A DNA stretch of 33,133 nucleotides. Source: a virus. Made by a program: the position numbers and the translations under genes. The stretch covers positions 1-33,133 of the IMG/VR virus record IMGVR_UViG_3300043449_000206; one strand, 5' to 3'. The notes beneath the pieces are model-generated. The model was not told the DNA's origin, did no database searches, and saw nothing but the letters and a program-made list of their open reading frames with translations. Positions 3,496-28,761 of this stretch are shown piece after piece (position 1 is the stretch's first letter; each line of letters opens with the position of its first letter).

Positions 3496-5301
3496 TTATT
3501 TTTTCAAAGGCACATTTGACACATCAAACTCATCTTTGGCAGATGGCGCACCAAATGGATACTGTTGTTTTTCTTCAGCAGTAATGATGTTGGTCAGTGG
3601 CTCAACGACAAGTTTTGTAAATGCAGTTGGGGAGGTTAGCTTTTCTCTTGCTGTTGACAAATACTTGATTGCTTTTGCGCCTTTAGGGTCAAGCAATGCT
3701 TTTGCCAATGTTCTTTGAGACAAGAAAAGCGCACCACCAGCAACTGCGGCAGTACCAAGATTGTCAGTGACCTTTTGTTGTTGTTCAGGACTCAACAAAA
3801 AATAATATCCAAGACCTAATGTTGGGGTAAGAATATTTAAAGCCGCACCTGTTGTTCTATAGTTTAGCCCCGGCATTGCTTTTGCCTCAACCAAACCCAA
3901 CTTAGCACCTTCATTCATTTGCTTGATAGCGGCATCTTGTGGCGTATTGCCAAACAATCTGTTATATGTGTTTGCAAAAGCCTTGTCTTGTTCTAAGTTT
4001 TTTGCAAATTGCAACATATTTTCAGGTGTGCTAACCATCGCTTCAAGATAGCCGTATCGCAAAGCATCAATAATTTCATTTGCTGGTTTTTTTGACAACT
4101 TAGATGCCGCAGTCACAGACTTAAACAAGTCAAGAGTTGGCGTTTCTTTCCCAGCCGCAAACAAATGTCCACCAACTTCTTCTGCATTTTTTGTTAGTGC
4201 TTCTTGTATTGCATCAGTTTGAAGACCTTGAATCCCCTCTCTGTATGTTTTGGTGACATTCCTATATTTTTTAAGAGTATCACCTTTTAAAGTTGTATTA
4301 GCAGAATAATCCATAGCCTTATCAAACTGAGAAATCAATTCACTTATTGTTTGTGAGGCACGACTATCTTTTTCGCTAGAAACACGAGAATTGTATTTGT
4401 CTCTATTTTCTGCAAGCCAACGACTTCTTATTTGATGAAGCGTAGGAACATCAAGTTCTGTTGGCAGAGCCTTCATTTCATTAAGAATAGATTTTTGACT
4501 ATTTGTTAAAGCAGAAGGATTTGCCAACAATTTATCAGCAAATGATTTGATGCCAAAGGTTGTTACCTTAGATTTTGTGTCAGCAAAAATGTCTTTATAA
4601 ATTGAATCAACTGAATCACTTAGTGATTTTTCACCTTGTTTGATAAAATTTTGTAAGATTTGACCAGACGAATATTGAGAAGATGTGTTTGTCCGCAAAG
4701 CCATGTCAAGTTCAGGACTCTTTACAAGAGACTTCAATATATCCTTAGAACCTGTCATTAACGCATCTTGGATTTCTTTGTCTTTGTCTTTAAATACGCC
4801 AAATGTCACTGGTGTATATACAATTCCTTCTAAAGCGGCAAATAAGTTTGCACCTGTTCTTTGACTTGCTGGCAATGTTGAGTTGTATCGTTGTAAAAAT
4901 TCTTCTGCGGCTTTGTTTGCATCAGGTGCATTTTTAGAAGTGAATCCAAGTTTGTCAGCACCAAAGCGCAAAACTTTGCCAAATCCTTTAAGAACAAGAT
5001 TGCCACCAGCATCCCATGCGGCTTCTTCAATTCCTGCTTGGGTTGCCAATGATAAAGATGGAGTCTCTCCCCTAGAAACTTGTTCGTAAAGCTCACCTCC
5101 AAAACCACCAACACCAGCACCAACGGTACTAAGCGGGAATGGCAATGGTGCTCCAACAATTAATCCACCTAACTCCTGAGCACCAAAAGCATCTCGCTGA
5201 CGATACTCAGGACTCATAATAGATTTGCTCATATCTACATTTGAGGGTTCTGTCTTGTCCCCAATTAGAGGAAAATTGCTTACATCAAATTCGTCAGCCA
5301 T
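3496..5301 (-). CDS. Internal virion / DNA ejection protein (third of the set)
   Basis: 601 aa from the ATG at 5301, which has GGAGG 5 nt upstream; an in-frame TTG at 5313 is less likely. It has an N-terminal hydrophobic Gly/Ala/Pro region (residues 25-70), a long predominantly helical middle, and hydrophobic segments near residues 485-530 (LGLGYYFLLSPEQ, then AAVAGGALFLS). This fits ejection proteins that form a channel across the host envelope. The motif DEFDVSN-x-PL occurs at residues 3-11 and again at the extreme C-terminus. It starts 1 nt after the previous gene ends. The assignment rests on position, size and composition; no enzymatic motif is evident. Confidence 0.65.
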   Translation of the reverse strand: MADEFDVSNFPLIGDKTEPSNVDMSKSIMSPEYRQRDAFGAQELGGLIVGAPLPFPLSTVGAGVGGFGGELYEQVSRGETPSLSLATQAGIEEAAWDAGGNLVLKGFGKVLRFGADKLGFTSKNAPDANKAAEEFLQRYNSTLPASQRTGANLFAALEGIVYTPVTFGVFKDKDKEIQDALMTGSKDILKSLVKSPELDMALRTNTSSQYSSGQILQNFIKQGEKSLSDSVDSIYKDIFADTKSKVTTFGIKSFADKLLANPSALTNSQKSILNEMKALPTELDVPTLHQIRSRWLAENRDKYNSRVSSEKDSRASQTISELISQFDKAMDYSANTTLKGDTLKKYRNVTKTYREGIQGLQTDAIQEALTKNAEEVGGHLFAAGKETPTLDLFKSVTAASKLSKKPANEIIDALRYGYLEAMVSTPENMLQFAKNLEQDKAFANTYNRLFGNTPQDAAIKQMNEGAKLGLVEAKAMPGLNYRTTGAALNILTPTLGLGYYFLLSPEQQQKVTDNLGTAAVAGGALFLSQRTLAKALLDPKGAKAIKYLSTAREKLTSPTAFTKLVVEPLTNIITAEEKQQYPFGAPSAKDEFDVSNVPLKK

Positions 5302-20826: not shown

Positions 20827-22086
20827 TTATATCCCCGATATTACATCTAGTGGTTGCCACTCATCTTCTTGATCTTCCTCGAAGTATGTAGTGACAGCAA
20901 GTTGGTCGATGTATGACAAAGAGTCGGGTAAGTCATCGTGTACGCCTTGGGCTGGAAACATTAAGAGTTGGTCTTTGAATTCATCCCAATCTTCCTCAGA
21001 GTTCAGCACAATGCGCCCATGCTCAAACCGCCCTTGGAGACTCCAGATAATCCTGTCAGCCTTTTTCCTGTTGCCATGCGTTAAGTCAACTATGTGCGAA
21101 TATACATTATTTTTTCGCATTAAGTCACTCAAATACGGCAAAACTGCGTTTTTTAACGCTCCCCTCTCGATTCCCACCGACAAAGGGCGGTATTCCCGCA
21201 TTTTCAGCAGAATCGTGGCGGCTGTCTCCCTGATGTCCCACCGCCCATAGGCAATCTCTTTGACAAACCACTTCCCATCGTCTGTGACCTTGACCACAGA
21301 GATAGCAGTCTGGTCTAGCCTTTTCTTGGAATTGGCGGCTTGTTTGGCAACTTCCTCAAAACCAGCCAAGTCCACAGCAATGTAGTAGCTTCCATGCTCA
21401 GGTTCTACTCCATATTTCAGCCATTCTTCCTTGAAGACATCTGAGCCAGCATTGTCAAAGGAAGCCATGTACTCTTGCTTGAAGGCAAAGGTAGAGAGGG
21501 TTTTCTTGGCAGATTCAATCTCAGAGGGGTCGATCAGGGGGTTATCTTTGGTGGTGAAGTGCCAAGATTTCCAATCTTTGTCTTCTTCTGATCTTCCAAG
21601 TTTAAAAATGTCATAGAAAAAGTTACGACCTTTGGGAGTTCCGATGAACATTGCCCGACCTTTTTTGTCTGACAGCGAAGCTCGAATGACTTGCTCCCAA
21701 GCCTCTGGTTTGATGTCGGCAACCTCGTCAAGCACAGCATAGGTGAGTGACACTCCTCGCAGAGTATCTGGGCGATCTGCACCTCTAACATAGATTTTTG
21801 CTCCGTTTATCAGGGTGATGTCCATGTTGTTGATGTGGCTAGACTGAATGACATCTCTGCCCAACTCCATCAAAACATCCCAAATAATCTGCCTAGCCTG
21901 ACCATTGGTAGGTGCAACATACAGCACAGCCGAGCCAGCAGTGCATTGCAGTCCTTCAATCAGGAGGGTAACGGCTGAGAGGCGAGACTTACCACATCTT
22001 CGACCAGCGGCAATGACTTTAAACCTTGTTTTATCACTAAAAACAATTTGTTGCCAAGGGAGGAGACTGAAGTTCAAATCAGACAT
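20827..22086 (-). CDS. terL: Terminase large subunit
   Basis: 419 aa. The ATPase domain has a Walker A-like AAGRRCGKS (residues 26-34), Walker B TYAVLDEVAD with D120/E121, and the coupling motif GTPKGR (149-154). The C-terminal RNase H-like nuclease domain shows YYIAVDLAGF (D239), VGIERGA (E306) and DDLPDSLSYI (D383-D387) as probable metal ligands. It translocates DNA into the prohead and cuts concatemers. It overlaps the small-subunit gene by 8 nt and is followed directly by the portal gene. Confidence 0.95.
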   Translation of the reverse strand: MSDLNFSLLPWQQIVFSDKTRFKVIAAGRRCGKSRLSAVTLLIEGLQCTAGSAVLYVAPTNGQARQIIWDVLMELGRDVIQSSHINNMDITLINGAKIYVRGADRPDTLRGVSLTYAVLDEVADIKPEAWEQVIRASLSDKKGRAMFIGTPKGRNFFYDIFKLGRSEEDKDWKSWHFTTKDNPLIDPSEIESAKKTLSTFAFKQEYMASFDNAGSDVFKEEWLKYGVEPEHGSYYIAVDLAGFEEVAKQAANSKKRLDQTAISVVKVTDDGKWFVKEIAYGRWDIRETAATILLKMREYRPLSVGIERGALKNAVLPYLSDLMRKNNVYSHIVDLTHGNRKKADRIIWSLQGRFEHGRIVLNSEEDWDEFKDQLLMFPAQGVHDDLPDSLSYIDQLAVTTYFEEDQEDEWQPLDVISGI

Positions 22087-22474
22087 CTTTGCTTTCTATA
22101 TCTTCTGCTTCTAGGACAGGGTTTTCCCCAATACTGACACCACCAATGCCTGAGATTGTGATGTTGACTGCGGAGCGTTGTTTTCCTTCTTTTTCAAACA
22201 GGGAGACAGGAAGCATTCTGTCCATACAGAGTTTGAGTGCCGCCATTTGAGCAGGGTGTTCATCATTCATGGCGATCTCAACTGCCTTGTAGACAACATT
22301 AGAACCAGCACTGTTTATCAGGAGTTCTTTGAGTTCTTTGATTTTCTGTTGTTCAGTCTTGGGTAAGACAAGGGCAGAGGGGTTGTCTGCATATTTGGAT
22401 AAGGTCATCTTGCCTGAACCACGGGGTCTACCCTTTTTCTTCAGGTTATCAGGAAGTGCATCTACAGCGTTCAT
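22079..22474 (-). CDS. terS: Terminase small subunit
   Basis: 131 aa from the ATG at 22474: MNAVDALPDNLKKKGRPRGS. An open frame extends upstream to 22582, but the added residues look non-coding. The N-terminal basic GRPRGSGK segment could contact DNA. The middle is helical (KIKELKELLINSAGSNVVYK, then HPAQMAALKLCMDRMLPVSL), and the C-terminus is acidic. The overlap with the large subunit is typical. The middle motif is common to small terminases of environmental podoviruses. It would recognise the packaging site; whether packaging is pac or cos cannot be read here. Confidence 0.8.
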   Translation of the reverse strand: MNAVDALPDNLKKKGRPRGSGKMTLSKYADNPSALVLPKTEQQKIKELKELLINSAGSNVVYKAVEIAMNDEHPAQMAALKLCMDRMLPVSLFEKEGKQRSAVNITISGIGGVSIGENPVLEAEDIESKDV

Positions 22475-22668
22475 CTTTTGTCCAATTAAAGGAAGAAGGT
22501 TGTTGGTGGCTCCCATGAGGCAGGGTTGGGCGCAATCCAACAACGAAAAACTCCCACGGAGCCAAACCGTTTCCACCAACACGGCTGGAGACTAAAGCGA
22601 GCGGAGCGATTCTGGAGCGTCCTCCATCAGTTCGCTTACCATTTGCCATAATCTCCATGCGTCTTGGA

Positions 22669-22721
22669 AGTTAGTACACACTTTACACGAGAATTGTTTT
22701 CTTGTATAGTGAGTACACACA
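22669..22721. promoter_or_regulatory. Two palindromic operator copies flanking a promoter
   Basis: AGTTAGTACACACT (22669-22682) and AGTGAGTACACACA (22708-22721) each match AGTGAGTACTCACT at 12 of 14 positions. They lie on either side of the promoter elements at 22682-22710. The first abuts the -35 box and the second overlaps the -10 box. A dimeric regulator bound here would cover the promoter. Confidence 0.6.
22682..22710 (+). promoter_or_regulatory. Candidate rightward sigma-70 promoter
   Basis: TTTACA (22682-22687), a 17-bp spacer and TATAGT (22705-22710) fit the bacterial housekeeping promoter at 10 of 12 positions with ideal spacing. The start of transcription would be near 22717, giving a leader of about 700 nt before the first gene at 23424. 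It is sandwiched between two operator palindromes. Confidence 0.5.
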
Positions 22722-23026
22722 CACGGGGGCATCACCCACCCCTCTATGCGGTTGAGCCGACCAAGTAGGATAAGCGTAGTGAACCATGTAGTTCTCAAGT
22801 AAAGCACAAGACTTGAACGGGGCTAGTAGCGTGGAGAGATAGCACTGACAAGCATCTCTAACTTAGATAAACGAGAGGCTCTCCTTTAAAAAAGGACACC
22901 ACCCCCTACGGGTGACTTTCCTATTTCGTCTCCTCCCCTAATCCAGATAGCCATATTTAATGTTGTACGGTTAGATTACTTTTTAAGTGCGGAGGAGGTA
23001 TCACAAATATTTACAACTCACACACA

Positions 23027-23039
23027 CCCCTCCCCCCCC
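23027..23039. repeat. Pyrimidine tract of 12 C in 13 bases
   Basis: CCCCTCCCCCCCC follows an ACACAC run and precedes the operator array. On the minus strand it is a G-tract with one interruption, unusual in this genome. It may be a recombination or replication feature, or only a slippage-prone tract. Confidence 0.7.
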
Positions 23040-23044
23040 ATCAA

Positions 23045-23121
23045 AGTGTGCACTCACTTACAAGTAAGCACTCACACACATAGAAGTGAGCACTCGCTAA
23101 CCAATCCAGTAAGTACTTACT
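23045..23121. promoter_or_regulatory. Array of four palindromic operator/iteron-like sites
   Basis: Four 14-mers occur at 23045 (AGTGTGCACTCACT), 23063 (AGTAAGCACTCACA), 23085 (AGTGAGCACTCGCT) and 23108 (AGTAAGTACTTACT). The starts are spaced 18, 22 and 23 bp, about two helical turns. The last is a perfect palindrome. They match the consensus AGTGAGTACTCACT at 11-12 of 14 positions. A half-site (AGTAAGTA) follows at 23156. Regular spacing suggests cooperative binding, as in a repressor operator or replication iterons. Confidence 0.65.
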
Positions 23122-23148: not shown

Positions 23149-23423
23149 CGGTATCAGTAAGTAGGAGTTATGCACCATATTGCACAAACCTGTATATATC
23201 TAAAATTCCGCATTATGAAATCATTAGAGTTATTTCGCCATATGAAAAAACAAGGCAAAAATACTGTGTAAAACGACAGCATAGGGAAACTACTAGTTTT
23301 GATTTTATTGTTTGATATCAAGCACTTAGCTGTTATCAAAGTTATATGGCACGATTCTATTATGTATATATATGTGAAGACCGCAAATCTTCATATTCCT
23401 AAATTTTTTGAAAGGTGTAAATC

Positions 23424-23789
23424 ATGGGATATTTCAGCAAAGTATGTGCTAAATCTAATTTGCCCGTTGTTCATTCTGACAGGGGTTACAACGCTTTAAA
23501 CACTGTAGTAGCTCTCCTACCTAACGGAACTAAAATTACAGGCTCGTATGACGGCTACGGACGGGTTGACGGCATAGAATTACATGAGCAATGGGACAAG
23601 GTTAAGTTCGTACTGTTGCAACATTATGCGGGCGAGTCATACGATGACCTTGGAAAATCAGGCGATGAAATGGCACAGGGTCATTTTATGTCTGACAATT
23701 TCTTGCTCTATTGCACAATGGTCAAGCCTAAAGGCTTTAAGACCTACGGAGGCTATAAAACAGCTTTCCGCAAATACGCTAATTGGTAA
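23424..23789 (+). CDS. Unknown protein, first gene of the rightward early block
   Basis: 121 aa from the ATG at 23424, with AAAGGTG upstream in the context AAAGGTGTAAATCATG, a form shared by other genes of this block. No family was recognised. It has a beta-rich first half (LNTVVALLPNGTKITGSYDG, then YGRVDGIELHEQWDKVKFVL) and an aromatic, Lys-rich end. Three scattered Cys do not form a metal motif, and it has no signal peptide or membrane segment. Its place after the control region suggests early expression and perhaps a host-takeover role. Confidence 0.6.
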   Translation: MGYFSKVCAKSNLPVVHSDRGYNALNTVVALLPNGTKITGSYDGYGRVDGIELHEQWDKVKFVLLQHYAGESYDDLGKSGDEMAQGHFMSDNFLLYCTMVKPKGFKTYGGYKTAFRKYANW

Positions 23790-23832
23790 TTTGACCTAAT
23801 CCTAGTAGTCCTATGGTTAAAACTTTTTGAGT

Positions 23833-24149
23833 GCTGGAAATTTTTTCGGAGAGGCTTTGTCATGTCTGATATTTTTGAAATCGTGCCTGAGTCGCACAAA
23901 GTAGCTTGGATCAATCACGGCTTTTATGTTGCTCAACCTTGGGTTGATTGTTCTTATTGTGCCGATGGTGATGGAATCGTAACCATTGAACAGAGGGGCG
24001 GCTTTTATCATTTAGTTGACCAAGGGACACACATAAAAAAACTAGGTGCTAACCTGTCGCAAGCCTTGAAAACGGCAGAAAATTATTTGCACACTAACTA
24101 TCGTCAGATTTATGATGACCACAGACTCTAATCCGAAAAAAAATCCAGC
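23833..24149. repeat. 18-bp imperfect inverted repeats flanking one small gene
   Basis: The 18-mer at 23833-23850 (GCTGGAAATTTTTTCGGA) and the 18-mer at 24132-24149 are reverse complements at 16 of 18 positions. They lie just outside the gene at 23862-24131: the left copy ends 11 nt before its start and the right copy begins directly after its stop. A third partial copy of the left arm (15 nt identical) lies at 24607-24621 inside a later gene. There is no clear target duplication. Confidence 0.7.
23862..24131 (+). CDS. Unknown early-block protein, flanked by inverted repeats
   Basis: 89 aa: MSDIFEIVPESHKVAWINHG, then FYVAQPWVDCSYCADGDGIV. It has one C-x-x-C pair and a beta-rich centre (IVTIEQRGGFYHLVDQGTHI) followed by a helix (LSQALKTAENYLHTNYRQI). 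No family was recognised. Its ribosome site is GGAGAGG, in the context GGAGAGGCTTTGTCATG. An 18-bp inverted repeat brackets the gene. It is likely co-transcribed with its neighbours. Confidence 0.6.
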   Translation: MSDIFEIVPESHKVAWINHGFYVAQPWVDCSYCADGDGIVTIEQRGGFYHLVDQGTHIKKLGANLSQALKTAENYLHTNYRQIYDDHRL

Positions 24150-24183
24150 GACACCATTTACTTACTTTTGAGAGGCTTAAATC

Positions 24184-24267
24184 ATGGATAAAAAAGAGAT
24201 TCTTTGGGCTATTGTTTGTGTTGCTGTCTTTGCCTATATTGGCTTTTTATTAGCTTTTAGAGGGTAA
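24184..24267 (+). CDS. 27-aa single-pass membrane peptide
   Basis: MDKKEILWAIVCVAVFAYIG followed by FLLAFRG. It has a short charged N-terminus, one transmembrane helix (residues 6-24) and a basic end. It is preceded by GAGAGGCTTAAATCATG, closely matching the start context of other genes in this block, which supports it despite its size. Function unknown. Confidence 0.5.
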   Translation: MDKKEILWAIVCVAVFAYIGFLLAFRG

Positions 24268-24281
24268 GAGTTCAAACCATT

Positions 24282-24338
24282 GCCCTATTTCTAGGGCTTT
24301 GGCTTGCGCTTTGCAAGGGCTTGCAGGGGCTAACCTGC
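24282..24338 (+). promoter_or_regulatory. Three consecutive hairpins in the leader of the next gene
   Basis: GCCCTA-TTTC-TAGGGC (24282-24297), CTTGC-GCTTT-GCAAG (24303-24317) and GCAGG-GGCTAA-CCTGC (24323-24338) are perfect short stems in series. They fill the gap between the 24184 gene and the start at 24356. Only TTT follows the first stem, so it is a weak terminator at best. They could slow polymerase, cap RNA ends or control translation. Confidence 0.6.
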
Positions 24339-24355
24339 GTTTGAAAGGCTTCAAG

Positions 24356-24676
24356 ATGAATAATTTATTTGAACAATTCCAAGGCGCAGACCTTGACCGA
24401 CTCGCTGACTGTTTAACTGCTATTCGTAAAGCAGGGCTGAAAACCGATAAATATACACAGGCAGGGGTCAATCAATCCTCGGGCAATGTGTGGGTTTGGT
24501 CTGAAGATTGGTCGGGATGTGTGGCTTGCTCTATTGGTTTCGATGTGTTTTGGGTTTACTCATGTAGAGAATGTGGCGAAGAATTTGAGTTTGAAACTTA
24601 CTCAGAGCTGGAAATTTTTTCTGAGTCAAATACCGAAGATTGCACAATGTGCCGCACTGAGGAGGTGACAGCATGA
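24356..24676 (+). CDS. Small zinc-ribbon protein of unknown function
   Basis: 106 aa from the ATG at 24356, with GAAAGGCTTCAAG before it; an upstream open frame to 24299 has no ribosome site and runs through the hairpins. The N-terminal helix (NNLFEQFQGADLDRLADCLT) and a Trp-rich centre (SGNVWVWSEDWSGCVACSIG) precede a zinc ribbon: YSCRECGEEF, 26 residues, then CTMC. Such small ribbons in phage early regions often bind host proteins or nucleic acids. The protein is acidic overall. It overlaps the next gene by ATGA. Confidence 0.65.
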   Translation: MNNLFEQFQGADLDRLADCLTAIRKAGLKTDKYTQAGVNQSSGNVWVWSEDWSGCVACSIGFDVFWVYSCRECGEEFEFETYSELEIFSESNTEDCTMCRTEEVTA

Positions 24677-24903
24677 AACACACAATGGTCTACTTTGGAA
24701 ATATGACTCATGGCACATTTTCTATAAATGGCGATGAAACACCTATCGTCATCATTCATTCAATTGACGAAAAAGCCATTATTGACCCTGATTCTGTTGA
24801 CGAAATGATGGAATTACAAGGGTTTGACAGTTATTTAATCCCCGATGAATTTACAGGCGAAATTGTATTTTCTAGGGCTTTTTTTAAGGGGCTTTCAGAA
24901 TGA
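24673..24903 (+). CDS. Unknown acidic early-block protein
   Basis: 76 aa: MKHTMVYFGNMTHGTFSING, then DETPIVIIHSIDEKAIIDPD. It appears beta-rich at the start, with an acidic helix (VDEMMELQGF) and a hydrophobic C-terminus. It has no Cys and no membrane segment. It overlaps the neighbouring genes by ATGA on both sides, so it is translated in coupled fashion. No family was recognised. Confidence 0.6.
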   Translation: MKHTMVYFGNMTHGTFSINGDETPIVIIHSIDEKAIIDPDSVDEMMELQGFDSYLIPDEFTGEIVFSRAFFKGLSE

Positions 24904-25073
24904 CACAAACCCAAGCCTTAACCCAAGCCTTAACCCAAGCCCTGATTCTTGCCATAACAGCACCTGATGATGACAGGGCAACCCAAGCCGCCACACTTGC
25001 CGAAAAAATAGCCAGCGGGTTAGATTCTTCTCAAGTAGAGCAATGTAAAGCCGATGCCCTGCTAATTTTGTAG
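24900..25073 (+). CDS. Small helical protein with TQAL tandem repeat
   Basis: 57 aa. MTQTQALTQALTQALILAIT is followed by APDDDRATQAATLAEKIASG and a second helix. The N-terminus holds nearly three copies of the 4-residue unit TQAL, encoded by a 12-nt direct repeat (unit ACCCAAGCCTTA, 24909-24940). The sequence LILAITAP-D ... AAxLAEKIA-G resembles small proteins common in phages. It is the last gene before the terminator at 25153. Function unknown. Confidence 0.65.
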   Translation: MTQTQALTQALTQALILAITAPDDDRATQAATLAEKIASGLDSSQVEQCKADALLIL

Positions 25074-25152: not shown

Positions 25153-25172
25153 AAGCCCTTCGGGGCTTTTTT
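25153..25172 (+). terminator. Rho-independent terminator of the rightward early block
   Basis: AAGCCC-TTCG-GGGCTT followed by more T (TTTTCTT) makes a 6-bp stem with a stable UUCG tetraloop and a T-tract. It lies 80 bp after the last plus-strand gene and before the convergent minus-strand block, so it should stop rightward transcription. Confidence 0.85.
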
Positions 25173-25225
25173 CTTGTCTACCATTATCCAAGTATTCCCA
25201 AGGCAAAAAACCCGCCTAAAAAGCC

Positions 25226-25471
25226 CTATAAATCGTCCGCATAGGGGTCGTCAACAAACAAGCATATCCCAACATGGTTTAGGTCAAAATCAGGGCGCAA
25301 CCCTACACGCCAAAAGTGTGCCGCCCAACGAATCGAAATCCGAGCACCTTCCGATATTGAACCACCACCGATATGCTCTAAGGCTTCTTTTTCCCTGTCA
25401 GAATAATAAATAACCTGACCCTTTTTGCCTTTTGGTGCATGATTATGTCGTTTTTTTGGTTTCAATTCCAT
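25226..25471 (-). CDS. Ribbon-helix-helix-like small protein
   Basis: 81 aa: a basic N-terminus (MELKPKKRHNHAPKGKKG), then QVIYYSDREKEALEHIGGGS and ISEGARISIRWAAHFW. A short strand, a helix, a GG turn and a second helix with SEGARISIRWAA match the ribbon-helix-helix (Arc/MetJ) layout by eye. That suggests DNA binding as a dimer. It is the last gene of the minus-strand replication block and overlaps the RuvC-like gene by 29 nt. It is one of two candidates for the protein reading the palindromes of this genome. Confidence 0.55.
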   Translation of the reverse strand: MELKPKKRHNHAPKGKKGQVIYYSDREKEALEHIGGGSISEGARISIRWAAHFWRVGLRPDFDLNHVGICLFVDDPYADDL

Positions 25472-25925
25472 GCAATGTGTGCCTTAAATATTCAGCAATT
25501 AGTAGGGCTTCAGCTTTGTTTATGTCCTTTTTCCGTTTAAGTTTGGCTTCAGGCCATAGGTATCGTGCCATATCCAACGATTCACTTTTGTCAGCGGTCA
25601 AATGGAAATGCTTTTTCCAGCGTTGTGGGGTGACAAGGTGAACAGGGTAGCGTGTTAACTCGCAAACCGCACTAATCACCCCTACTGCCCGACCAAATGT
25701 GAAAGTGCTGGAAACCCCTTGGTTTGGCATTGAATGCACTTGTTCCATGCAAATCTCTGCGCCCTCTTTGGGGTCGACAATGGATAGGATTCGACTTTTA
25801 AAGACAAGGGCAAGTATGTGCTTGTCCTTATGTTCAATATCGAATGACTCTAGGTAATTACCATCATGGTCTACTGCACCCAATGCGCCTGAAACAGCAC
25901 CGGGGTCAATTCCTATATAAATCAT
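25443..25925 (-). CDS. RuvC-like Holliday junction resolvase
   Basis: 160 aa with an RNase H-like fold. MIYIGIDPGAVSGALGAVD holds the first catalytic Asp (D7). CMEQVHSMPNQG (E61) matches the second acidic motif and its M-P-x-Q-G tail. GRAVGVISAV, TPQRWKKHF and NKAEALLIAEYLR (E139, with D134 near) complete the set. The usual Asp-Ala in the last motif is Glu-Ala here. It cuts four-way junctions, clearing recombination intermediates before packaging. It is encoded in the minus-strand replication block behind the PP-loop protein (4-nt gap). Confidence 0.88.
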   Translation of the reverse strand: MIYIGIDPGAVSGALGAVDHDGNYLESFDIEHKDKHILALVFKSRILSIVDPKEGAEICMEQVHSMPNQGVSSTFTFGRAVGVISAVCELTRYPVHLVTPQRWKKHFHLTADKSESLDMARYLWPEAKLKRKKDINKAEALLIAEYLRHTLHGIETKKTT

Positions 25926-25929
25926 ATAG

Positions 25930-26724
25930 TTAGTCTCCGCAGAAACAGGCTATTGTTTCTTCTGTAGCGTCAAACATATCTATTTGGTCTTTGCCAAATT
26001 GTTTCATTGCCGCATAAGTTGGGCGGTCTTTTGAAAATCTGCCGCCAATGATTTCTTCTTGTTTTGCCCACCAAGTAGCCCTGTTTGGCTCATGTTGGAT
26101 GATGGACATTAGCTGATGTGCGCCCTTCATAAAGCACAAATCGCAGTTTCCAAGAGGGGTAATTTTGTCAACAAATTGAAGTTCAAGGTCAAAATCATTT
26201 GATTTCCAAAACCGCTGGACATCGGATTGTGTGACCCCTGCCAATGCTAAAGGCGCATGAACTGTTTCCCTGAGTTTTCCAACTCGCTTAGGTTCATCAG
26301 CACGAATTCCCGCCAATGTCTGAAATTCCTCAAACCCTTTAGATTTCATAAAACGAGCTATTGGGTTAATTTTTAGTTCTGTTGTACAAAATCGCATAAC
26401 TGAGTTGGGCAAAAATGATTTTTGTTTAATTAATTCAGCAAAAGGCTCACCATCTCTGGATGCGGTTTCGTAAGTGACCTCTACGAATTTATCAGTATTC
26501 CTTGTGAATTCAAGCCAATAGATAGGAATATTCCACCGCTTTTGGCATTCGTTGACAAATTTTAAAGTTGATTCGTGTTCTTTCCCTGTGTTGCAAAAAA
26601 TGACAAAGGTTTCATTTGGTAGGCTCATTTGGTGAGCTTCTAAGACCCTGTAAAGCATATAAGCCGATGTTCTACCACCCGAAAAACTGATGCAAGTTGG
26701 TTCATTTATCAGAAATGGATTCAT
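25930..26724 (-). CDS. PAPS reductase / PP-loop family protein
   Basis: 264 aa. The PP-loop is SFSGGRTSAYML (residues 13-24), the nucleotide-binding variant of SGGKDS. FCNTGKEHESTL follows at about 43-54. RFCTTELKINPI (C113), AGIRADEPKR (138-147), CDLCFMKG (C194, C197) and the terminal CFC (C260, C262) supply Cys positions that could hold an iron-sulfur cluster, as in PAPS reductases and DndC. The family activates or reduces sulfur compounds or modifies nucleic acids; the substrate in phages is unsettled. No Dnd partners are present. It is coupled to its upstream neighbour by ATGA. Confidence 0.85.
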   Translation of the reverse strand: MNPFLINEPTCISFSGGRTSAYMLYRVLEAHQMSLPNETFVIFCNTGKEHESTLKFVNECQKRWNIPIYWLEFTRNTDKFVEVTYETASRDGEPFAELIKQKSFLPNSVMRFCTTELKINPIARFMKSKGFEEFQTLAGIRADEPKRVGKLRETVHAPLALAGVTQSDVQRFWKSNDFDLELQFVDKITPLGNCDLCFMKGAHQLMSIIQHEPNRATWWAKQEEIIGGRFSKDRPTYAAMKQFGKDQIDMFDATEETIACFCGD

Positions 26725-26990
26725 TTTGTGCTTTCATTATTTTCGTCAATTCCTGACTGATTCCCTTGAAAATTCCCAATGGATGCAGTTCCAGTTCCTG
26801 TGCTCTGTGCCATGCGTGTGCTTTCCAACCACTCGTTGATGCCATCTTGACTAAATGGTCTAGAGTGGATTGGTAAAGGTCGTACCGCATCCCCTGTGAG
26901 CCACAAGGCTTCGGTGATGCGTTTGATAGATAGATAACTGTTCCCATCTTTCACCTCATCCAAAAGACGGTTTGCTTGTTCTTTTGTCAT
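26721..26990 (-). CDS. Small phage protein in the replication block
   Basis: 89 aa: MTKEQANRLLDEVKDGNSYL followed by SIKRITEALWLTGDAVRPLP, then a Ser/Thr/Gly/Asn-rich tail that looks disordered. The N-terminal helix pair (Q-A-N-x-L-L-D-x-V-K-DG ... I-x-x-AL-x-LTGD) is typical of small proteins beside phage replication initiators. It overlaps both neighbours by ATGA. A competing frame at 26702-26947 lacks these features. Function unknown. Confidence 0.65.
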   Translation of the reverse strand: MTKEQANRLLDEVKDGNSYLSIKRITEALWLTGDAVRPLPIHSRPFSQDGINEWLESTRMAQSTGTGTASIGNFQGNQSGIDENNESTK

Positions 26991-27790
26991 GCTGTTTTTC
27001 CTAAAACTGCCCTGATTTTCGCTAAAACTTCAGGATTTGGTGGCGCAGTCTTCAGCCTATCCTCATCCAGTTTGACAAGCGCAGGGTCACGCTGTGAGCT
27101 TGATGGAACTGTTACCATTGCAATATCAACCTTGTTAAAGGTATTTTGCTTTTGAACAACCCAATCAGCTTTAAAAGACTGCCAGTTGCGCAAGACAATC
27201 TCTTTTAACGCATCTTCTAAGGTAAACCCTGCTTTTTCTGCTTCTTTCTGAATTCCATCAATTACCAGTTGCGTTACCTGTGCTTTCTTGGATTTCCTGT
27301 GTTTGACAAATTCATCCCAAACAGATTGTGAAATGCCGTCAGGCATGGCAACGACAGTTGCTCTTATATTTGGTTTATGGTTATTGGTTATTGGTTCATG
27401 GTTATTGGTTGGTTGAACGACTGTTGAACCGGAATCCAACGCCCGTTCAACGCCCGTTGAGTTTCTGTTGAGTGCTCTTTTTGCGGCAGATGCTTTTCCA
27501 GCTTTAGATGCAGTCTCAAGTTGTTGTTTATAAAAGGAAATTTCTTTATCGCATCTTTTGTGATGCCACATATTGTTTTCCATGCTGAAAAACATTTCAA
27601 GTATTCCTTGTAAGGTTTCTTGCTGGTCACGAGCATTTACTTTCATCGACAACTCAAAAATTGAGTTTGGCAATGGCTGTTCCGTGTCGTAATAGAGCCA
27701 AAGAAGTTTGAGATAAATCCCCACTTCTTCGTTTGTCAAAAAAGAAGTGTCTTTAATAAAGTCACCAATGTGATGTTGGTAATAGTGCAT
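26987..27790 (-). CDS. DUF1376-family replication protein
   Basis: 267 aa from the ATG at 27790 (MHYYQHHIGDFIKDTSFLTN). The N-terminal 100 residues are DUF1376 (YdaU type): GIYLKLLWLYYDTEQPLP, then MWHHKRCDKEISFYKQ. A Ser/Thr/Asn linker with the repeated NNHEPITNNHKP follows. The C-terminal segment (SVWDEFVKHRKSKKAQVT, then ALKEIVLRNWQSFKADWV) resembles ends of DnaT/O-like helicase loaders. It probably starts phage replication by bringing in the host helicase. No polymerase or helicase is encoded, so the host supplies them. An upstream frame to 27874 lacks family similarity. Confidence 0.8.
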   Translation of the reverse strand: MHYYQHHIGDFIKDTSFLTNEEVGIYLKLLWLYYDTEQPLPNSIFELSMKVNARDQQETLQGILEMFFSMENNMWHHKRCDKEISFYKQQLETASKAGKASAAKRALNRNSTGVERALDSGSTVVQPTNNHEPITNNHKPNIRATVVAMPDGISQSVWDEFVKHRKSKKAQVTQLVIDGIQKEAEKAGFTLEDALKEIVLRNWQSFKADWVVQKQNTFNKVDIAMVTVPSSSQRDPALVKLDEDRLKTAPPNPEVLAKIRAVLGKTA

Positions 27791-27854
27791 TTCCCCACGC
27801 CCTAAAATCCACCCTGAAAAGAAACTGCGGCAGGAGGGGTGGGTTCTCTTTTCA

Positions 27855-27874
27855 ATGGGGTAGCTACTCCCCAT
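27855..27874 (-). promoter_or_regulatory. Short hairpin in the leader of the DUF1376 gene
   Basis: On the minus strand, ATGGGG-AGTAGCTA-CCCCAT is a 6-bp perfect stem with a palindromic loop (TAGCTA). It lies between the end of the Cys-rich gene (27901) and the start at 27790, with no T-tract. It may modulate expression of the initiator. Confidence 0.4.
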
Positions 27875-28214: not shown

Positions 28215-28319
28215 GTGCGTAAAGTAGCATTGTGGTTAATGTTTGACAATAAGGGTATGTCCTAATGTCAGACAGAATATAGTGTCGTACAGTATCCATT
28301 CATCAACAGAAAGGCGTTT
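28215..28319. promoter_or_regulatory. Divergent promoter region
   Basis: This 105-bp gap separates two divergent operons. It holds TTGACA at 28243-28248 and TATAGT at 28278-28283, neither with an ideal partner. On the minus strand TTGTCA-17-TACTTT ends near the 28214 start codon, which would give an almost leaderless transcript. The symmetrical box TGTCAGACA (28266-28274) lies in the middle. Promoters are likely but cannot be fixed. Confidence 0.4.
28264..28279. promoter_or_regulatory. Possible second operator, AATGTCAGACAGAATA
   Basis: The core TGTC-A-GACA is a perfect inverted repeat around one base. The whole 16-mer recurs with one change at 30657-30672. Both copies lie 34-41 bp upstream of a plus-strand start codon (28320 and 30706). 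Confidence 0.45.
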
Positions 28320-28568: not shown

Positions 28569-28761
28569 AGTCTTTGGGCGCATCGCACTCATTGTTGCCT
28601 TGCTGATGGGCATAAACCATGTTTTAACGCCATCACCACAGTCACAGAGCATCCAAGTCATCAGCAAGAAGAAAAGTCTCTTAAAGGCTTGTGTCAGGCT
28701 TCACAAAAGAAAGGCAAAAAACTATGCAACCGTCTGTGAAAAACGAGGAATCTATGTCTGA
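28552..28761 (+). CDS. Small membrane-anchored basic protein
   Basis: 69 aa; the start is set at 28552 because GGAG lies 8 nt upstream, though ATGs at 28546 and 28555 are possible. MMTFSEVFGRIALIVALLMG is a probable transmembrane helix, followed by a Ser/Pro/Gln linker and a basic helix (KKKSLLKACVRLHKRKAKNY) with two Cys. It could be an inner-membrane protein with a cationic domain. No family was recognised. Confidence 0.5.
   Translation: MMTFSEVFGRIALIVALLMGINHVLTPSPQSQSIQVISKKKSLLKACVRLHKRKAKNYATVCEKRGIYV

Follow-up and report, generated by a model that had tools for sequence, protein, structure and literature searches.

In the nin region of lambdoid phages, unrelated small genes are exchanged at gene borders marked by boundary sequences, and in T4-type phages, the spacers of variable early-gene regions carry stem-loops, the PeSL (promoter-early-stem-loop) elements. 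Among described phenomena, the one closest to that considered here is found in cluster K mycobacteriophages: the system of start-associated sequences, SAS/ESAS (PMC3203893). SAS occur also in cluster EF Microbacterium phages (PMC7302621). They have been described since 2011, and papers of 2024 and 2025 still call their role unclear, the first describing it as ill-defined (PMC11373665) and the second calling for experimental verification (PMC12699233). In an ESAS, a 17-bp imperfect inverted repeat lies upstream of the SAS. The ESAS of Adephagia contain SigA-like promoters, and according to Pope et al., RNA pairing in ESAS has little support. Relaxed homologous recombination has been described for Rad52-like recombinases (PMC3945230).

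The case presented here works like SAS. As in cluster K, a short uniform sequence overlaps the ribosome-binding position, a few bp ahead of the start codon, is conserved past the Shine-Dalgarno core, and precedes many unrelated gene families in one orientation, mainly nonstructural-region genes with larger upstream gaps. The consensus is different (GGGATAGGAGCCC for the cluster K SAS, RAWAGGYKTNNAATC here), and, unlike SAS, the leader, found here in other phages, is confined to one slot. Inverted repeats lie upstream of it here too, as one or two RNA hairpins that differ from the ESAS repeat in length and sequence and that, unlike ESAS, are backed by covariation and lie in linkers with no internal promoter. 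Also unlike SAS/ESAS, the same elements flank swapped genes. In this they resemble the lambdoid nin boundaries (short conserved border sequences around exchanged small genes, in a phage with a Rad52-like annealing protein), except that the conserved unit, known from sequence comparison, comprises the entire structured intercistronic spacer together with the start sequence. Like PeSL elements, the linkers place stem-loops between variable genes, but they do so without a promoter. The SAS phenomenon is met again in these freshwater phages, an unrelated group, and three things are added to it: RNA covariation, a slot-bound leader, and identical linkers bracketing swapped genes. The function of SAS becomes testable, as does the question of how phages replace small host-interaction genes without loss of expression.

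The window (the whole stretch of DNA analyzed, 33,133 bases) is a viral record and probably only a fragment. It has no close relative in the phages of GenBank, and megablast of 20 kb of it against the INPHARED phages gave no match. The block of interest, positions 23424-25073, is a third unit of six rightward ORFs (g1 to g6) set between the leftward terminase operon and the leftward RuvC operon (Table 1). The corresponding slot was compared in 21 distinct contigs, each holding both a terminase anchor and a replication anchor. These are a group of freshwater phages infecting bacteria. All 21 slots hold rightward small genes, and the gene sets differ between contigs: ORF calling yielded 105 families, 68 of them confined to one contig, a count that includes some spurious ORFs in the 5' region.

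Table 1. Positions of features in the window and, in the last two lines, in a sister cassette
Feature	Position	Strand	Remarks
Virion genes	left two thirds of window	leftward	rightmost: SU10-like portal, large terminase, presumed small terminase
Presumed small terminase	22079-22582	leftward	right end of virion gene run
Operator- or iteron-like 12-bp palindromes (six)	22670, 22709, 23046, 23064, 23086, 23109 (22670-23120)	both strands scanned	GTRWGYACWYAC
Sigma70-like promoter	22682-22710	+	TTTACA-N17-TATAGT; 10/12 consensus match; reads toward block
Start-associated sequence of g1	23410-23423	+	GAAAGGTGTAAATC
g1	23424-23789	+	121 aa; virus-only family; confident mixed alpha/beta fold prediction, no known match
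Left arm, g2 inverted repeat	23833-23850	+	end overlaps g2 Shine-Dalgarno
Start-associated sequence of g2	23849-23861	+	GAGAGGCTTTGTC
g2	23862-24131	+	89 aa; CADGDGIV motif family; dN/dS well below 1
Right arm, g2 inverted repeat	24132-24149	+	directly 3' of g2 stop codon
Start-associated sequence of g3	24170-24183	+	GAGAGGCTTAAATC
g3	24184-24267	+	27-aa single-span membrane peptide; purifying selection
Class A linker	24268-24355	+	stem 1, stem 2 (duplicated here), then GAAAGGCTTCAAG at 24343-24355
Start-associated sequence of g4	24343-24355	+	GAAAGGCTTCAAG
g4	24356-24676	+	106 aa; helix, beta sheet, and C-terminal CxxC...CxxC zinc ribbon
g5	24673-24903	+	acidic, 76 aa; start overlaps the stop of g4; Shine-Dalgarno GAGGTGACAGC
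g6	24900-25073	+	57 aa; final cassette gene in most contigs having g6
Intrinsic terminator	25153-25174	+	AAGCCCTTCGGGGCTT-TTTTCT; 6-bp GC-rich stem, then TTTTTT
RuvC operon	25226-27874	leftward	RuvC, PAPS-reductase-like protein, primosomal protein
Second rightward operon	from 28320	+	reaches Sak single-strand annealing protein and YqaJ exonuclease
ArdC N-terminal homologue (anti-restriction)	L174:2116-2421		PF08401, 7e-7; behind structured linker
TreK homologue	L174:4245-4544		PF24229, 4e-18; behind structured linker

An earlier note on this DNA had placed a promoter ahead of the block and a terminator at its end. The promoter is borne out by its conservation in 15 of the 21 homologous slots. 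In addition, 62 nt of noncoding promoter DNA (22650-22711) are 100% identical to contig L184, while the flanking genes are only about 75% identical. The terminator, a GC-rich stem with a T-run, is likewise where it was expected and is conserved in contigs L002, L012, and L016.

The six ORFs claimed in the block are all present, and, as the same note had it, none of the products can be assigned to a described family: Pfam and PHROGs searches of g1 to g6 gave chance-level matches only. The six are evidently real genes, since the synteny check that the note had proposed finds g1 to g4 in unchanged order in related contigs, at 85-94% identity, and since dN/dS is far below 1 for g1 to g5, even for the 27-aa g3 (dN 0.05-0.14, dS 0.75-1.15). 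A first dN/dS value for g6 was discarded as meaningless because the length of its repeat shifts between relatives.

The family of g1 has 125 relatives in viral contigs, mostly in other phages. It was not found in 84,980 bacterial and archaeal species genomes and therefore offers no prophage or host context. No match was obtained by tblastn, whether with g1 and g2 as queries against phages or with a g1 homologue against plasmids. The protein had been described as beta-rich, which is not purely so; its AlphaFold2 model (pLDDT 91.7) has three strands and two helices. Structure searches with the model against PDB and BFVD found no match (the best Z, 3.1, fell on Hfq/Lsm rows, below noise), and sequence profiles of g1 and g4 against PDB gave nothing significant. 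For g4, there are 78 relatives in viral contigs, again mostly of other phages, and the Pfam matches are to the zinc ribbon only. Its AlphaFold2 model (pLDDT 87) shows the helix, the sheet, and the zinc ribbon, and had no match in the structure search (best Z 4.2, to the C-terminal domain of T4 MotA, below noise). GenBank relatives of g4 in MW202496 and MW202711 (L017 and L018) are labeled 'mqsa for mqsr toxin'. An identification of g4 as an MqsA antitoxin does not fit. The two have in common a four-cysteine zinc ribbon, but g4 ends after the ribbon and has no helix-turn-helix domain, there is no recognizable MqsR partner, and the neighbors match no known family. The labeled homologues, too, are devoid of a helix-turn-helix and of a recognizable MqsR. 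The label is probably an over-annotation.

Membrane peptides like g3 (single-span, 26-31 residues) occur in at least 17 of the 21 slots, while 294 kb of other sequence contains 10 such ORFs, and they fall into several unrelated families. Relatives of g5 lie in contigs L176, L182, L184, L237, and L242. The last gene, g6, has 65 relatives in viral contigs, mostly of other phages, and is nearly always the last before the terminator. The TQAL repeat in its product is encoded by a 12-bp tandem repeat (AACCCAAGCCTT, 24900-24943) and resembles replication slippage in a coding repeat, since one unit is missing in most relatives. A g2-like gene adjoins a g6-like gene at L234:4790-5130, in an unrelated phage of 57 kb, which suggests that the two travel as a pair.

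Terminal-repeat-encoded modules such as that of TreK have a role in host takeover. A homologue of TreK lies in a sister cassette together with an ArdC-N homologue (PF24229 being, per Pfam, a Staphylococcus phage terminal repeat-encoded protein), and sister cassettes carry also GP88 proteins and a sliding-clamp-like protein. Since ArdC-N and TreK homologues are among the sister cargo, an accessory, host-interaction role fits the slot. It had been proposed that host-takeover or anti-defense proteins would be encoded here. The hypervariability of the slot and the sister homologues are in keeping with this, but no gene of the window itself bears such a signature; for the slot as a whole, such a role is plausible. 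The slot is in any case a defined place in which to seek new anti-defense proteins and membrane peptides.

Four of the genes had been said to share a start context, and the pattern GARAGG-N5-9-ATG does precede g1 to g4, the contexts of g5 and g6 being different. There are only six such sites on the plus strand of the window; the other two are at 28309, before the first gene of the other rightward operon, and at 28709. The earlier note nevertheless overlooked the main point, that this context is part of start sequences and RNA linkers found throughout the lineage before nonhomologous genes. The GARAGG context belongs to a group consensus, TTTT-RAWAGGYKT-NNAATC-ATG (RAWAGGYKTNNAATC), which extends past the Shine-Dalgarno core to T at -17 to -15 and A at -3. 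Within the slots, it precedes 40 gene families. It stands before 93 of 1529 plus-strand ATGs in the slots and, in the remainder of these contigs, before 17 of 5844 ATGs, a 21-fold enrichment by a regular expression drawn from the same sequences in which it was counted. Most genes with the leader (57 of 69) follow gaps of at least 30 nt, while overlapping genes mostly have GAGGTG, and the phages' remaining genes have Shine-Dalgarno sequences of different form. Homologues of g1 have the leader in 3 of 3 cases inside the phage group and in 0 of 52 outside; with g4, the leader is found in the ten contigs closest in backbone and in 0 of 40 homologues outside. The start sequence is therefore tied to the slot and not to the gene.

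Uniform leaders of other kinds were also encountered. In contig L233, a g6-homologue locus, an unrelated phage from freshwater has nine different genes in a row (around position 5001), each behind a sequence of the phage's own, AGGAGATCAGACG. This is an independent SAS-like case, and L017 has a uniform leader of its own (AAAGGGGAAA) ahead of several genes. House leaders of this kind are no general rule, L233 being the clear exception, since a score of within-contig homogenization over 134 loci barely exceeded background outside the group (8.17 vs 7.89).

Strong folding is calculated for the spacers that go with the start sequence (mean z of -3.1, n=50; z < -1.5 in 37 of the 50). Ten aligned examples of the class A linker have 13 pairs, with 100% of cells paired and double changes at 7 of the 13, and their covariation score was reached by none of 500 shuffles. 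Class C linkers have compensatory changes at 11 of 16 pairs (again 0 of 500 shuffles), while class B linkers are too conserved for the test. A covariance model of class A, R1, recovers the copy in the window, which was outside its training set (24268-24337, 54.9 bits, E 4e-11). In the group loci (0.35 Mb) it has 33 matches, those at E < 0.1 lying all in slots and on the plus strand, as against 2 weak matches in 0.9 Mb of other phages. None of 4227 Rfam covariance models matched the linkers. The class A element precedes at least seven unrelated gene families: g4, F31, F35, F23, F87, a 109-aa gene, and a WTNYETW-family gene, the last two found by a database scan with part of the element. In the window, only the linker between g3 and g4 is clearly of class A, those between g1 and g2 and between g2 and g3 being arranged differently (with the inverted repeat of g2). 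An extended stem of class A shares bases with hairpin 2, and the two are mutually exclusive. In L002:7082-7125, for example, a 5' GAGU..CAA can pair with UUG.GCUU of hairpin 2, giving two exclusive, switch-like folds. The calculated accessibility of the start sequence is 0.478 with the native spacer, compared with 0.453 (p 0.02), and since this gain is small, an insulating role of the linkers is weakly supported.

Linkers match where genes do not. Between L016 and L183, whose backbones are 81% identical in terL and 73% in RuvC, no homology can be detected in the coding part of the cassette, but two linkers match, over 71 nt at 89% and over 75 nt at 100%. The 75-nt match runs exactly from stop codon to ATG, with unrelated genes on either side. 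Many further pairs of contigs have matching linkers between differing genes, although some matches in this comparison lie in the long 5' noncoding region and are to be discounted.

In the reading preferred here, with a probability somewhat above one half (roughly 0.55), the block represents one of the states that an exchangeable accessory cassette can take, and the linkers are backbone sockets that would act on the levels of both RNA and DNA. The slot is fixed between the late (terminase) and the replication (RuvC) operons, has its own rightward sigma70-type promoter and terminator, and may be expressed early. Most spaced genes would be entered by way of the standard start-associated sequence, its core a variant Shine-Dalgarno, and many are preceded by a two-hairpin intercistronic RNA. 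The linkers would remain while the genes between them are replaced, most likely serving in two roles. At the RNA level, an incoming gene would obtain a standard ribosome-entry site, with hairpins separating it from the gene upstream. At the DNA level, the linkers would supply short homology, through which the Sak annealing protein and the YqaJ exonuclease of the phage could swap genes. The cargo would probably be host-interaction proteins, to judge from the sister ArdC-N and TreK homologues, plus one small membrane peptide. Perhaps, and this is put forward tentatively, covarying linkers and start sequence form a single socket system, at once recombination substrate and expression module, so that any small ORF landing there is expressed immediately. 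If this is true, the SAS-like house leaders of other phages would be versions of one gene-exchange device.

The identity of linkers could, however, reflect selection instead of recent exchange. It is possible, though rather unlikely, that an RNA-binding factor of phage or host recognizes the leaders and linkers and so sets the timing of translation, or of stability, for every gene of the cassette; genes that are swapped in would then need these elements for their regulation, and recombination at linkers would be a by-product. Such a regulon agrees with the conservation of the leader past the Shine-Dalgarno core, with the house leader of the unrelated L233, and with the compensatory changes, which demand a function at the RNA level. 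But there is no candidate for the factor (the resemblance of g1 to the Hfq/Sm fold, with Z about 3 over about 50 residues, is below any meaningful level, and g1 is absent from most cassettes), and the three linker classes differ in sequence.

Less likely again is that the linkers are sites of transcript processing or attenuation, setting the dosage of each cistron. GC-rich hairpins do lie directly 3' of stop codons, and they would suit such sites, as would the mutually exclusive folds of class A. Since the hairpins lack a following T-run, however, they are not intrinsic terminators, and promoters inside the linkers were rejected, sigma70-like sequences being found in 0 of 47 where 3.1 were expected by chance.

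It is improbable that the block is just an early operon of small genes of the ordinary sort, the shared context being merely a good ribosome-binding site for the host. The GAAAGG core can indeed form a duplex with a CCTCCTTTCT-type 16S tail (-7 to -8 kcal/mol), but the in-slot enrichment in phages whose other genes use other Shine-Dalgarno forms, the homologues elsewhere that have no leader, and the covariation of the RNA structure largely refute this reading. Finally, hairpin-forming sites that separate small promoterless genes bring to mind an integron-like array, with linkers as attC-type sites moved by a tyrosine integrase, but this is very hard to credit, as no integrase is among the 34 proteins of the window that were scanned (the record being a fragment), no bracketing RYYYAAC/GTTRRRY core pair is evident by eye in the linkers, and the linkers keep their order as backbone rather than traveling with the genes.

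The flanking inverted repeat ascribed to g2 is real, with arms of 18 nt matching at 16 positions. Both arms are kept in the window and three relatives, and a further relative has lost both; there is a compensatory change in L006, and the predicted duplex amounts to -18 to -23 kcal/mol in four genomes. No inverted repeats were found around the other cassette genes, so that the arrangement is peculiar to g2.

Some neighboring features may be mentioned. In the replication operon, the PAPS-reductase-like gene (25930-26724) is up to 95% identical in some relatives and missing from others. The palindrome GTRWGYACWYAC has 13 matches in the window (both strands, 1 mismatch allowed) where 3.8 were expected, a number reached in 0 of 100 shuffles, and arrays of the same type lie in the same place in L098, L099, L173, L174, and L176. 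Four of the palindromic 12-mers stand next to the small terminase gene (23046-23120), at a spacing of 18-23 bp, and AT-rich DNA follows them; they may serve as operators, as lambda-like origin iterons, or as a packaging site. A lone operator-like site, GTGAGTACCCAC, lies at 615-626, at the left end of the record.
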